Position numbers and translations under genes: made by a program
The notes under the pieces: generated by a model
Database searches by the model: none
What the model was told of the DNA's origin: nothing
The model's input: only the letters and a program-made list of their open reading frames with translations
In this document: positions 33,014 through 37,249 of the stretch, piece by piece
How the letters are laid out: the number at the start of each line of letters is the position of its first letter
Numbering within the stretch: the stretch's first letter is position 1
From: Flavobacterium lindanitolerans
Lineage (GTDB): Bacteria; Bacteroidota; Bacteroidia; Flavobacteriales; Flavobacteriaceae
DNA: 64,000 nucleotides
Direction of reading: 5' to 3'
Assembly (NCBI RefSeq): GCF_002846575.1
Contig: NZ_PJND01000007.1
Coordinates: 1,302,001 to 1,366,000 of the forward strand

Positions 33014-33436
33014 TTACAGTGTCTCTGTATATTTTTTGAAATTATCCATGATGGCTTGCCATCCTGCTTTTTGGAATTCGATAGGGTGCGTATTTTCAGG
33101 GTCGAAAGTTTCCGTTACTTTTACGGTATCACCGGAATCTTCGAAACTAACACTTACCCGGCGACCATCACCCATTACATATTCTATTTTTTTATAGTTC
33201 TCGACCTGGGTGTATTCGCCTTCGAAATCAAATGCCATACTGCCGTCTTTAGCCGCCATCTTTGTTCTGAATTTTCCTCCGATTCTCAAATCGTTTTCTG
33301 CTTCAGGAGCGTGCCAATCTTCAGATGCAAAACTCCAGTTCATGGTGTGTTGCGGTTCTGTAAAGCTTTGCCATACTTTGGAAATAGGAGCTTTTACGGT
33401 AGTTTCTACGGTAATTGTTTGATTTGAATTGTTCAT
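33014..33436 (-). CDS. SRPBCC / AHSA1-like domain protein
   Basis: A 140-residue START-like fold protein: TVKAPISKVWQSFTEPQHTM at the N-terminus, a beta-sheet core (GGKFRTKMAAKDGSMAFDFE), and the C-terminal helix GWQAIMDNFKKYTETL. The family (activator-of-Hsp90-like, Pfam AHSA1) binds hydrophobic ligands; small bacterial members mostly have no known function. It is co-directional with the VOC gene. A TACCTTTG -7 element on the minus strand lies at 33478-33485. Confidence 0.87.
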   Translation of the reverse strand: MNNSNQTITVETTVKAPISKVWQSFTEPQHTMNWSFASEDWHAPEAENDLRIGGKFRTKMAAKDGSMAFDFEGEYTQVENYKKIEYVMGDGRRVSVSFEDSGDTVKVTETFDPENTHPIEFQKAGWQAIMDNFKKYTETL

Positions 33437-33805
33437 TGTTTGTTTTTTTAAATGATTGATTTTGTTTTTGCCTTTTACAAAGGTAAATTGAAGCTATGGA
33501 AATGAGAGGTTGTAAATTAGACAATGTTGAGGGCGAAACAGGACAGCTGTCATATCGGTTTCAATAAAGAAAATAATTTCAGGAAAAATATTGCAGACAC
33601 AGATCTGATTCCTAAAAAGATTTTTCTGCCAAAGCCAGTCAAATAAGGACATGTGAGCGATTTCTTACCTGTTTTTTGTTCGCTAAACGCGAACTAACGA
33701 TGTTAAAATTTTGATTTTCAGTGCTATAAATTGAGATTGTTTGGGTTATTTTCCTATCTTAGGACTGAAAAAGAAAAACATAGTATTAATCCCAAATTTA
33801 TTATC
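33437..33805. other. 369-nt intergenic region upstream of the graspetide precursor
   Basis: No convincing ORF. The minus-strand -7 box TACCTTTG (plus 33478-33485) faces the SRPBCC gene. On the plus strand TATCTTAG (33755-33762), 21 nt after a TTG (33731-33733), is a weak promoter candidate for the precursor gene. I saw no second precursor gene here. Confidence 0.45.
33478..33485 (-). promoter_or_regulatory. -7 element of the SRPBCC gene
   Basis: TACCTTTG on the minus strand fits TAnnTTTG, 41 nt upstream of the ATG at 33436. No -33 TTG is seen at normal spacing. Confidence 0.45.
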
Positions 33806-34033
33806 ATGGAAAATGACAAAAAATTGAAAAAACCTTTCTTTGCCAACTTTTTGGAAAGCCAGGTTCCTGAAAAGGAAATGGAACAAATTAATGGTGGAAC
33901 TGATGCAGTAACTATGAAATTCCCATCAGATGGTGAAGATGGCCCAGGCCAGGTAATCACAAGCAGAGTCAAAGATCTTTATCAGACGATGAAATATCCG
34001 TCTGATAGTGACGAAGAAGGAGTCGAGCTTTAA
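33806..34033 (+). CDS. Microviridin-type graspetide precursor peptide with two cores
   Basis: A 75-residue ribosomal peptide precursor. The leader carries PFFANFLE (residues 10-17), which matches the PFFARFL helix recognised by the ATP-grasp ligases of microviridin clusters. EMEQINGG (24-31) follows, a double-glycine motif. Two core motifs come next: T36-M-K-F-P-S-D-G-E-D45 and T61-M-K-Y-P-S-D-S-D-E-E71, each fitting the TxKxPSD pattern whose Thr/Ser/Lys side chains are cross-linked to Asp/Glu by esters and an amide. The start at 33806 is chosen because upstream codons (from 33731) do not resemble a leader. Two ligase genes follow. Known products of the group inhibit serine proteases; the target here is unknown. 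Confidence 0.9.
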   Translation: MENDKKLKKPFFANFLESQVPEKEMEQINGGTDAVTMKFPSDGEDGPGQVITSRVKDLYQTMKYPSDSDEEGVEL

Positions 34034-34042
34034 GATTTGATG

Positions 34043-34086
34043 AAAGCAACAGTGTTTCTATCTGGAAATACTGTTGCTTTTTTTTT
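34043..34086 (+). terminator. Terminator/attenuator between graspetide precursor and ligase genes
   Basis: AAAGCAACAGT (34043-34053) pairs with ACTGTTGCTTT (34070-34080), followed by T6. It lies 9 nt after the precursor stop. Partial read-through would give excess precursor over ligases, a common design in RiPP operons. Confidence 0.85.
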
Positions 34087-34134
34087 GCTCAAGAGGGATA
34101 TGCTTGGGCTTTTTTATTTAAATATTCCTAATTA

Positions 34135-35109
34135 ATGATACTTTGTCTGACGCACAGCAATGATCTCTATACGATAGATATAGTGATGAAAAGGCTGAAA
34201 GAACTGGGGAAGGAGGCCTATAGAATGAATAGTGACCTTTTTTCGTCCAAACTATCTTTTGATTATTCGCTTTCCGATAATAAGAATACTGTCCAAATCC
34301 AAATTGATGACCGTGTCATTGATGCCAATGCAGTGGAAGCTGTTTGGTACCGAAAACTTTGGCAGGCAGAAGCTCCTGACGAACTCGATGATGATTTTAA
34401 AGAAATCTATCTTCAGGAATATTACACCATGCAAAATATCTTTTTTGAATCGCTACGTGATGTTCCCTGGTTTAATCCAATGGCAAAAGACCATGAAATA
34501 AGCAATAACAAGTTCGGACAATTATCTGTTGCCGCACAAAATGGCATTGAGACACCCAAAAGTCTTTTTACAAACAATCAGGAACAGGTAAAAGCGTTTT
34601 TCTATGAGGAATGCAACAAAGAGATGATAGCCAAGCTTCATGGTACACTTTCCCGAAGTATGTTGGGCAATACACCTTTTTTCCCTACTACACAGATAAC
34701 AGAACCTAATCTGGCCGGCCTTGCTACCCTGATTTACTGTCCCATGATTTTTCAGGAAATGATTCCGAAGGCCTATGAACTCCGCATAATTTATGTTGAT
34801 GGCGAATTTTTTGCCGGAAAAATAAATGCCGGACAGTCAGAACGTGGCAAAACAGACTGGCGTATTGCAACCGATATTTATTTTAAATGGGAACCTTATA
34901 AACTTCCAGACCCGGTTGCAACTTCGCTTACAAAAATGATGCAACAGATAGGACTCTTTTTTGGCGCTATTGACATGATTCGCCATCAGGACGGGCGCTA
35001 TATTTTTCTGGAGGTAAATCCTCAGGGTGAATGGGGAATGCTGCAAAGAGATTTAAGCTATCCTATTGGGGAAACCATAGCCGAAAAATTAGTCGCGAGG
35101 TTAGAGTAG
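34135..35109 (+). CDS. ATP-grasp graspetide ligase, MvdC/MvdD family (first)
   Basis: A 324-residue ATP-grasp enzyme that should activate Asp/Glu side chains of the precursor and close ester or amide rings. Family features are the N-terminal ILCLTHSNDLYTIDIVMKRL, AVWYRKLW, YCPMIFQEMIPKAYELRI (substrate/ATP region), and the Mg-binding FLEVNPQGEWGML near the C-terminus. It is the first of two ligases. By gene order and comparison with the second, it may be the amide-forming MvdC type, but that is inference. A terminator-like hairpin separates it from the precursor by ~100 nt. The second ligase starts 38 nt downstream. Confidence 0.88.
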   Translation: MILCLTHSNDLYTIDIVMKRLKELGKEAYRMNSDLFSSKLSFDYSLSDNKNTVQIQIDDRVIDANAVEAVWYRKLWQAEAPDELDDDFKEIYLQEYYTMQNIFFESLRDVPWFNPMAKDHEISNNKFGQLSVAAQNGIETPKSLFTNNQEQVKAFFYEECNKEMIAKLHGTLSRSMLGNTPFFPTTQITEPNLAGLATLIYCPMIFQEMIPKAYELRIIYVDGEFFAGKINAGQSERGKTDWRIATDIYFKWEPYKLPDPVATSLTKMMQQIGLFFGAIDMIRHQDGRYIFLEVNPQGEWGMLQRDLSYPIGETIAEKLVARLE

Positions 35110-35147
35110 CGGTTCCTTTCCCTAATCAATTAAACTCCCAAAATTCT

Positions 35148-36149
35148 ATGAAAAAAGTACTGATAATTACACATACTCACGATAACGAATCTATAGAGAC
35201 TGTTACGCAACAGCTAAAAAAATATAATGCCCGGGCCATACGTTTTAATGTCGATTTATATCCGTTGCACTACGGATTGACAAGTTGTTTTGAAGACGGG
35301 CAATGGAAAGTCTATCTCGACCACAACGGTGAAAGGGAGTCTTTGCATGACATTGCAGCATTGTGGTACAGACGTAGCCATAATCTGGGAAGCGGTTTGA
35401 GCAGCGTCTTGGAAGGGGAATATTTGTCTTCAGCGCACGGAGAAATAAGAACCACGCTTTTTGGAATGCTGGAAAGTATGAATTGCTTCCAAATAGGCAA
35501 ATTCAGCCAATACAGAAGATTGGACAGCAAAGAAGAACAGATGAAAATTGCTTCTTCACTCGGATTGAAAATTCCGGAAACCTGCATAACGAACAATCCG
35601 GACGAAGCTAAAAAATTTGTACTCTCACATCCCAAAGGAGCAATTACAAAAATGCAAAGCTCTTTTGCCATTGACAGAGGAGGAGTGGAACATGTTGTAT
35701 TTACCAATGTCATAAACGAAGACAATCTGGATGCGATTGACAGCTTGCAATATTGCCCGATGCAGTTCCAGGAAAAACTGGAAAAACAGAAAGAGTTACG
35801 AATAACCATTGTGGGTGATGCTGTTTTTTCCTTTGCGGTTGATTCCCAAAAACTGGACAACGCTAAAATTGATTGGCGTCGTGAAGGTGTTGAACTGCTG
35901 GACCAGTGGGAACCTTATAATTTGCCGGAACCCATAAAACAAAAATTATTGAAAATGATGGATATCTACCAGATTAACTATGGTGCGGTAGATATTATTG
36001 TTACTCCTGAAAACGAACATTATTTCCTTGAAATTAATTCGGCAGGAGAATTTTTCTGGCTCGACCGACTTATTGATGGTGCAATTTCAAACCAGATTGC
36101 CAAAGTTTTGTCTGACGAAGCACCCAGACGTTACATCCCGGTATTCTAA
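35148..36149 (+). CDS. ATP-grasp graspetide ligase, MvdC/MvdD family (second)
   Basis: A 333-residue ATP-grasp ligase. KKVLIITHTHDNESIETV at the start, ALWYRRSHN, ITKMQSSFAIDRGGVEHVVF, CPMQFQEKLEKQKELRITIV, and FLEINSAGEFFWLDR at the end resemble the ester-forming MvdD/MdnC enzymes, so it probably makes the two omega-ester rings first. The start at 35148 is preferred: an in-frame ATG at 35031 lies inside the preceding gene and its extra 39 residues have no match to the family. It is followed by a strong terminator that closes the cluster. The assignment to ester versus amide ligase is inferred from motif resemblance. Confidence 0.88.
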   Translation: MKKVLIITHTHDNESIETVTQQLKKYNARAIRFNVDLYPLHYGLTSCFEDGQWKVYLDHNGERESLHDIAALWYRRSHNLGSGLSSVLEGEYLSSAHGEIRTTLFGMLESMNCFQIGKFSQYRRLDSKEEQMKIASSLGLKIPETCITNNPDEAKKFVLSHPKGAITKMQSSFAIDRGGVEHVVFTNVINEDNLDAIDSLQYCPMQFQEKLEKQKELRITIVGDAVFSFAVDSQKLDNAKIDWRREGVELLDQWEPYNLPEPIKQKLLKMMDIYQINYGAVDIIVTPENEHYFLEINSAGEFFWLDRLIDGAISNQIAKVLSDEAPRRYIPVF

Positions 36150-36159
36150 AAACTTAATC

Positions 36160-36187
36160 CCGGCCTTATCAAGGCCGGTCTTTTTTT
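36160..36187 (+). terminator. Rho-independent terminator of the graspetide cluster
   Basis: CCGGCCTT-ATC-AAGGCCGG followed by TCTTTTTTT, starting 10 nt after the second ligase. Confidence 0.92.
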
Positions 36188-36194
36188 AAACTCC

Positions 36195-36267
36195 CACTAT
36201 CCATTATCCACTATCCATTATCCACTACCCACTATCCACTATCAACTATCCACTATTAACTATCCAC
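36195..36267. repeat. Tandem repeat of a 7-bp unit, about 10 copies
   Basis: Units of CACTATC with variants CATTATC, CACTACC and AACTATC run head to tail from 36195 to 36267. The array ends 8 nt before a TATCTTTG promoter element of the next gene, so its length would change the sequence around the -33 region. Confidence 0.9.
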
Positions 36268-36275
36268 CAGTTCCC

Positions 36276-36283
36276 TATCTTTG
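36276..36283 (+). promoter_or_regulatory. -7 element of the GSCFA gene
   Basis: TATCTTTG fits TAnnTTTG and lies 18 nt before the start codon and directly downstream of the 7-bp tandem repeat. No TTG is present at the usual distance. Confidence 0.6.
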
Positions 36284-36301
36284 CAACTAAAATTCTAACA
36301 A

Positions 36302-37249
36302 ATGCAATTCACTACGCCTGTACCAATACCCAAAAGCTCTCATTCAATCGATTATGCTTCGAAAGTTGTTTCATTGGGTTCCTGCTTTGCCGAAAACATG
36401 GGAAACAAGCTGGATTATTTTAAATTTCAGAATACGACCAATCCTTTCGGAATCTTATTTCATCCGTTGGCGTTACAGAAAATAATACACAAAGCGGTCC
36501 GACAGGAACTGTTCTCAGAAAAAGATGTTTTTTATCATAACGAAAGATGGCATTCATTTGACGTACATTCTGAGTTGAGCCTTGCAGACAAGACAACGTT
36601 TTTGGAGAACCTTAATTCTGGTATAGGGAATTTTCACAATGCTTTACTGGAAAGTTCGCATGTTATAATCACTTTAGGAACCTCCTGGGTTTATCGGAAA
36701 ATTGAAACGGATGCCATCGTGGCAAATTGCCATAAAGTGCCTCAGGCGGCGTTTAAAAAAGAATTACTTTCTGTAGTACAGATTAAAGAAAGCCTTTTAG
36801 AAATTATCGGAACCATTTTGACTTTCAATCCGAAAACGAAATTGATTTTTACAGTTTCTCCTGTGCGTCACATCAAAGATGGTTTTGTGGAAAACCAATG
36901 GAGCAAAGCCAATCTAATTTCGAGCCTTCAAGAGGTAGTCCATGCTACAGAAAGCACCTCTTATTTTCCAAGCTATGAAATTATGATGGATGAATTACGC
37001 GATTACCGCTTTTATGCAGAAGACATGATTCATCCCGGTTCATTGGCGATAGATTACATCTGGAAACGGTTTGCAGAAACCTGGATATCGGAAGATGCTT
37101 CTTCAATAATGCCGGAAATAGACAGTATTCAGAAAGGACTGAACCACAGGTCATTTAATCCGCAATCAGAACAGCACCAAAAGTTTTTAGAAAACCTTCA
37201 GAATAAGATATTGGTTTTGAAATCGAAGTATCCATTTATGGAGTTTTGA
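36302..37249 (+). CDS. GSCFA-domain protein
   Basis: A 315-residue cytosolic protein with the naming motif SLGSCFAENMGNKL near residue 31 and TTNPFGILFHP. Later motifs (SHVIITLGTSWVYR; LIFTVSPVRHIKDG; MIHPGSLAIDYIWKRF) fit an SGNH/GDSL-like hydrolase layout, with Ser in the GSCFA block and Asp/His in DMIHP. The family is common in Bacteroidota but its substrate is unknown. It is separated from the graspetide ligases by a terminator and the tandem repeat, so I do not include it in that cluster. Confidence 0.88.
   Translation: MQFTTPVPIPKSSHSIDYASKVVSLGSCFAENMGNKLDYFKFQNTTNPFGILFHPLALQKIIHKAVRQELFSEKDVFYHNERWHSFDVHSELSLADKTTFLENLNSGIGNFHNALLESSHVIITLGTSWVYRKIETDAIVANCHKVPQAAFKKELLSVVQIKESLLEIIGTILTFNPKTKLIFTVSPVRHIKDGFVENQWSKANLISSLQEVVHATESTSYFPSYEIMMDELRDYRFYAEDMIHPGSLAIDYIWKRFAETWISEDASSIMPEIDSIQKGLNHRSFNPQSEQHQKFLENLQNKILVLKSKYPFMEF

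Follow-up and report, generated by a model that had tools for sequence, protein, structure and literature searches.

A chryseoviridin-type graspetide operon in Flavobacterium lindanitolerans with a conserved internal hairpin and a candidate C39 exporter in trans

The 64,000-nucleotide stretch of Flavobacterium lindanitolerans DNA analysed here (the window) contains a three-gene operon that we read, with a probability of roughly 0.8, as a chryseoviridin-type graspetide system whose precursor would receive CdnC-like esters and possibly lactams, would be cleaved and exported in trans by a C39 protein, would yield inhibitor cages bearing Met, and would be kept in excess by a hairpin. The 75-aa precursor with its PFFANFLE leader and two TMKxPSD cores, the two ATP-grasp ligases and the terminator that an earlier note had reported from the letters of the sequence were all located (Table 1). 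That note made no mention of the internal hairpin, the double glycine at the leader end or the conserved Thr/Asp pair in the linker.

Table 1 Window coordinates of the operon and its elements
Feature	Position	Strand	Basis
Precursor gene, 75 aa, module order MsM (core, single ring, core)	33806..34033	+	NF033738, PF12559, homology search
PFFANFLE leader motif, ligase-activating	33833..33856	+	10-sequence alignment; role per available text of PMC13039773, PMC8939145
LESQ, form of LExQ, candidate NosP-like cleavage site	33851..33862	+	LEEQ/LAEQ in available text of PMC13039773
INGG, double-glycine leader end, candidate C39 cleavage site	33887..33898	+	Precursor set, alignment
Core 1 TMKFPSDGED (T36-D45), microviridin-like, Glu at position 12	33911..33940	+	Core comparison
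Linker element TSRVKD (T52-D57), predicted single omega-ester ring	33959..33976	+	Positional variability; motif in available text of PMC8939145
Core 2 TMKYPSDSDEE (T61-E71), chryseoviridin-like, Asp at position 12	33986..34018	+	Core comparison
Terminator-like hairpin, 18 pairs + T tract, precursor/ligase 1 gap	34042..34081	+	Terminator scan, 17/17 loci, fold z
Ligase 1, MvdC/MdnB/CdnB-like ATP-grasp, 324 aa, predicted lactam-forming	34135..35109	+	TIGR04185, AMdnB chain 7m4s
Ligase 2, MvdD/MdnC/CdnC-like ATP-grasp, 333 aa, predicted ester-forming	35148..36149	+	TIGR04184, CdnC chain 7mgv
Terminator-like site after ligase 2, 8 pairs then T tract	36160..36178	+	Terminator scan

In profile searches the precursor lies above the curated cut-offs of the microviridin group, with 66.1 bits against NF033738 (cut-off 26) and 44.9 bits against PF12559 (cut-off 21), and it carries both a PFFANFL leader and two TxKxPSDx[DE][DE] cores. 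Its leader reads MENDKKLKKPFFANFLESQ...INGG and is followed by the two TMKxPSD copies. Residues P10, F11, F12, A13, F15, L16 and E17 are invariant in a 10-sequence alignment, within a motif of the type that the available portions of PMC13039773 and PMC8939145 connect with ligase activation. A homology search returned 59 proteins; the query itself had two cores, so that cores among these homologues are partly expected. The window's own genome holds one precursor of this family. Several Flavobacterium precursors are already named as members of it in public databases, and we found no paper on such a Flavobacterium cluster in the open-licence literature. No Rfam family reached its gathering score in 33400-36400. 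Profiles, solved relatives and related loci back the initial description of a microviridin-type, multi-core, Chryseobacterium-like graspetide. More exactly, the sequence supports a chryseoviridin-type locus, because the linker has the single-ring element TxxxxD. The peptide itself is an extension of an already known graspetide kind, and its omega-ester and omega-amide bonds are predicted.

Both ligases find their best profile in the microviridin pair, MvdC (TIGR04185, 372.9 bits) for ligase 1 and MvdD (TIGR04184, 420.8 bits) for ligase 2, and both stay under the respective equivalog cut-offs of 425 and 475. We file them as MvdC-like and MvdD-like. These cut-offs are also missed by four scanned proteins of relatives from three loci (L016 from Chryseobacterium with both its ligases, L013 from F. 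microcysteis and L009 from Sinomicrobium weinanense with ligase 2 each), and we infer that they reflect cyanobacterial members. The best solved relative of ligase 1 is the AMdnB chain 7m4s (E 2.8e-71), and that of ligase 2 is the CdnC chain 7mgv_A (E 2.4e-123, 414.5 bits; next chain 246.2). The two enzymes are paralogous, with 28% identity, and a search of the genome yielded only these two ligases. The most likely start of ligase 2 is 35148, whose Met aligns with a Met of the CdnC chain (residue 21); a longer mechanical reading frame from 35031 overlaps ligase 1. Lys K165 and Asp D280 are essential in AMdnC according to the accessible text of PMC5934393, and apparent counterparts of both are found in the two ligases when these are aligned to their solved relatives with an assumed numbering offset of one. 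That the operon is decayed or silent is very improbable, as these counterparts, the three intact reading frames and the alignment of the precursor with its two closest relatives (92% and 87% identity), which conserve every predicted cross-link residue, all speak against it.

To place the window precursor among its relatives, we pooled the 59 homologues, 25 precursors from related loci and the window's own, giving 85 sequences (near copies of the window precursor included, namely P0001 and the 49-aa fragment P0008, the sole entry of order M), 81 of them distinct from the leader motif on. With M denoting TxKxPSDx[DE], in which Ser may replace Thr, and s denoting TxxxxD, the commonest module order among the 81 is sMsM (34), followed by MsM (18), to which the window precursor belongs, MMM (5), ssM (5) and others. 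The cores tend to fall into two types by their place in the chain. Positions 12-13 are ED in 51, DE in 27, EE in 9 and DA in 1 of the 88 non-last cores, and DE in 69, ED in 6 and DD in 6 of the 81 last ones. Glu at position 12 thus occurs in 60/88 non-last versus 6/81 last cores (odds 26.8, p 4e-17, with related sequences counted), and the window agrees with this trend, having GED in core 1 and SDE in core 2.

The linker between the two cores probably contributes a ring of its own. The motif TxxxxDxxxTxKxPSDxD[DE], given in the part of PMC8939145 at hand for chryseoviridin, holds the residues of three linkages, and the window precursor matches it at all fixed positions with residues 52-70 (T52-E70). 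Among 73 distinct last cores, 53 keep the linker Thr (-9; entropy 1.63 bits) and 57 the linker Asp (-4; 1.25 bits), while the other ten of the 12 upstream positions are more variable (2.25-3.55 bits). Because TSRVKD plus core 2 fits the motif and these two linker residues vary less than their surroundings, we predict one cross-link beyond the earlier count. The single ring is not universal, since 20/81 last cores have no TxxxxD at precisely this spacing. Alternatively, the locus could encode a plain two-core microviridin with independent cages and an inert linker, whose Thr and Asp serve recognition by ligase or protease. This is quite unlikely: precursors of order MM, MMM or MMMM do exist (8/81), and the three-core cyanobacterial precursor AMdnA receives up to two lactones per core (PMC5934393, text available in part), but the linker Thr and Asp are less variable than their neighbours, the same spacing is a published chryseoviridin element (PMC8939145, likewise in part), and the same set includes ssM, sssM and ssssM precursors (9/81), in which s modules stand in tandem before a single core.

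In the predicted pathway, the PFFANFLE leader would be bound by both ligases. Core 1 would receive two omega-esters from the CdnC-like enzyme, T36-D42 and S41-E44, and core 2 another two, T61-D67 and S66-D69; in the linker the same enzyme would form T52-D57 as a lone omega-ester ring. Lactams may subsequently be closed by the MvdC/CdnB-like ligase, between K63 and E70 in core 2 and, less surely, between K38 and D45 in core 1. The Lys lactams are less sure than the esters and may not form, because the three linkages of the motif (PMC8939145, as far as its text was available) would already be accounted for by the lone ring plus two esters of the cage; the order ED, as opposed to DE or EE, at positions 12-13 of core 1 also counts against a lactam there. 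Where the earlier note expected each core to lose two to three waters, the refined prediction for the whole peptide is five losses through esters, rising to as many as seven if both lactams close.

Comparable loci recur in related genomes. A scan of a species-representative genome collection with ligase 2 yielded 16 loci with 57-94% identity from Flavobacterium, Taibaiella, Sinomicrobium and one Chryseobacterium assembly. In all 16, one to four precursors (25 in total) lie upstream, with a PFF[AS]xFLE leader and one or more [TS]xKxPSD cores. Since the query was the ligase and not the precursor, this search bears directly on the proposal that the reading would fall if ligases were conserved beside precursors lacking cores; no such locus appeared among the 16. 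The family is sparse, occurring in 2/397 genomes of the taxonomic family and 9/249 genomes of a genus sample, the window's own counted in each. Among window reading frames of at least 100 aa, only the two ligases have a homologue in all 16 loci. A downstream GSCFA-family gene (window 36302-37249) has homologues in L002, L011 and L013, and, among the matches listed, L003, L007, L010, L012 and L017 share a gene read as peptidyl-prolyl isomerase-like; these shared neighbours look like common chromosomal sites.

Several features of individual loci are recorded here in their own right. Two Taibaiella loci (L004:5695-6854 and L005:5731-6848) have four tandem precursor genes each, and in either locus a single core has the form SKKFPSDWED or SKKYPSDWED, the first Thr being replaced by Ser, with a Trp-Glu pair that resembles cyanobacterial cores. 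In F. microcysteis (L013:1905-5427), the stretch upstream of the graspetide operon encodes two proteins that match IetA/IetS defence models, an AAA ATPase and a subtilase, and an IS1595-type transposase is found at 491-1429 of the same locus. Among the matches listed, these IetA/IetS-like genes have no homologues in the window's stretch or the other loci, and the proximity of a subtilase to a predicted subtilisin inhibitor may be coincidence. In the window itself, a 7-base tandem repeat (CCACTAT, 10.6 copies, 82% matches) occupies 36194-36267, directly past the operon's terminator-like site.

Another element absent from the initial description is the hairpin, which takes up 40 of the 101 bases between precursor and ligase 1 and has an 18-pair stem followed by a run of nine T. 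The intergenic fold reaches -31.8 kcal/mol (z -5.8), and z ranges from -3.0 to -7.0 in 15 loci (60 dinucleotide shuffles each), the set being made up of loci with a recognised ligase start, which leaves L010 and L011 outside. Under one fixed rule, a hairpin occurs within 150 bases past the last precursor in 17/17 loci, window included, compared with 11/340 mononucleotide-shuffled stretches and 0/17 of the 150-base stretches before ligase 2, which include coding sequence. By reading, stem sequences vary between genera and place and form are constant. The evidence for the hairpin is this conserved position and not the scan count, as a general terminator scan of the region found four against 2.4 (sd 1.4) in shuffles, a number not above chance.

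A hairpin after the precursor and none before ligase 2 suggests unequal transcription, in which part of the transcripts would pass into the ligase genes and precursor would exceed enzyme. An internal terminator that sets subunit ratios is reported for ABC importer operons (PMC9045158, in the part of its text available), and our limited literature search found no publication on an internal hairpin or terminator for graspetides. Full termination, with the ligases under their own promoter and no read-through ratio, or a hairpin that only shields the precursor transcript at its 3' end, is a less probable explanation that still deserves weight: the 18-pair stem and nine-T run favour it, but a sigma-70 scan placed no site in the 101-base gap, 40 bases of which are the hairpin. 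The latter argument is weak, as the scan does not cover Bacteroidota promoters and its five sites, against a shuffle mean of 7.9, are uninformative.

The double glycine bears on how the leader is removed, a route that the earlier note had left open. Among the 81 distinct precursors, the leader ends in GG in 73, GS in 6 and GN in 2; a script first gave 70, 9 and 2, which reading corrected, as L006, L017 and P0021 carry QGG further on. P0030, P0034 and P0055, whose leader ends are not GG, have GG two residues downstream. The window's genome contains one strong C39 match (PF03412, 128.3 bits), ~80 kb upstream of the operon, in a 730-aa protein that also has ABC membrane and ATPase domains; this genome thus combines a leader ending in GG with a C39 peptidase/ABC exporter. 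Exporter models TIGR03796 and TIGR01193 match the protein below their own cut-offs. Its locus (L024:2379-7484; G000:C7 ~1251.4-1256.5 kb, minus strand) encodes, besides this C39-ABC exporter, an HlyD-type adaptor and a VKOR/thioredoxin protein, the latter with a weak C39-like part. The first residues of the exporter read QADQKDCGPTSL and include the Gln and Cys of the C39 active site. No gene for a GG peptide was recognised beside it: the small frames listed for the 12-kb stretch, a listing that omits frames inside larger ones, include a single free-standing one of 66 aa without GG.

C39 genes accompany the precursor across genomes. All 16 genomes of the related loci have them, each with at least one C39 frame of at least 731 aa, and in the genus sample of 249 genomes (C39 in 114, some matches weak or partial; precursor in 9) they occur in 9/9 precursor-bearing Flavobacterium genomes versus 105/240 others (one-sided Fisher p 0.0007, with kinship and genome size ignored and both counts taken, from shared handles, as concerning the same 249 genomes). 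The genus and locus sets overlap, so that 16/16 and 9/9 are not independent. C39 is common even where the precursor is absent: besides the 105/240 of the genus, 64/199 genomes in a family sample and 8/14 control genomes carry it. For other GG precursors in the genome, TIGR04149 had zero matches, but zero in control genomes too; TIGR01847 had zero at E up to 1 and matched three control genomes, missing the known precursor (12.6 bits).

The co-occurrence is compatible with C39 export in trans, and it makes the exporter a candidate for acting on this precursor. The leader would be cut after GG by the unlinked peptidase-exporter, releasing a 44-residue peptide of 4834.25 Da unmodified and 4708.17 Da after seven losses. 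What the earlier note said of the surroundings holds in that no acetyltransferase or transporter adjoining the operon was recognised among the frames of 26-45 kb, which were read and in smaller part profile-scanned; the GG leader end and the unlinked C39 exporter leave the question of processing less open than the note had put it. A rather unlikely alternative is an M1 metallopeptidase like NosP/AplP acting in trans, which would cut near LExQ and trim onward, leaving ragged N-termini. LExQ is present in 81/81 distinct precursors (LESQ in the window), and NosP is unlinked to its cluster, with one of its three cuts adjoining LEEQ (PMC13039773, text available in part). LExQ overlaps the PFFANFLE ligase motif, however, which can account for its conservation without a protease, and GG, GS or GN follows it in all 81.

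Set against known systems, the operon stands closest to the chryseoviridin cluster CdnA/CdnB/CdnC of Chryseobacterium gregarium. Shared features are a ligase 2 nearest to CdnC, the C-terminal motif, a precursor followed by two ligases, and GG after the leader; the differences are one precursor in place of four, two cages around a single ring in place of single rings ahead of one cage (P0052, P0053, P0058), and a first core of Glu-12 type. In the 2021 work of Zhao, one ligase is said to install both the single and the bicyclic ester rings of chryseoviridin. The Chryseobacterium clusters are flanked by hydrolase and epimerase genes in the available text of PMC8939145; among the matches listed, no homologues of the genes flanking the Chryseobacterium locus L016 lie in the window's stretch. 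As in AMdnA/AMdnB/AMdnC of Anabaena sp. PCC 7120, whose AMdnC works distributively (PMC5934393, in its accessible part), several microviridin cores share a precursor, but AMdnA has three and its ligases are cyanobacterial, while window ligase 2 is nearer CdnC. The cyanobacterial microviridins J, K and L (MdnA/MvdE) have a PFFARFL-type leader and a TxKxPSDx(D/E)(D/E) core. The window resembles them in leader type, core form and the MvdC plus MvdD pair; it differs in its two cores and linker ring, in having no recognised adjacent acetyltransferase or transporter, and in ligases that lie under NCBI equivalog cut-offs.

Residue 5 of microviridins governs protease specificity, and the F5M variant of microviridin L has an IC50 of 0.09 umol/L toward subtilisin (both from the available text of PMC7823629). 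Met occupies this position in both window cores and in 110/169 cores of the set. Our best guess, by analogy, is that subtilisin-like proteases are the targets, because both cores have Met at the specificity position; the mature peptide would carry two protease-inhibiting cages of this kind. A bolder and tentative reading, which we think unlikely to hold in full, joins these elements: two chemically different cages in one precursor, with one ester ring as the bridge between them, would leave the cell intact through the unlinked C39 exporter and form a two-headed subtilisin inhibitor, with a precursor-to-enzyme ratio set by the hairpin, a structure conserved across four Bacteroidota genera.

For Bacteroidota graspetides, the C39 exporter is a concrete candidate for leader removal, and the conserved hairpin, if read-through is true, may explain an excess of precursor over enzyme. 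As a three-gene system in which a single precursor mixes both core types with a single ring, the operon would allow one construct to probe one ligase on three substrate shapes.
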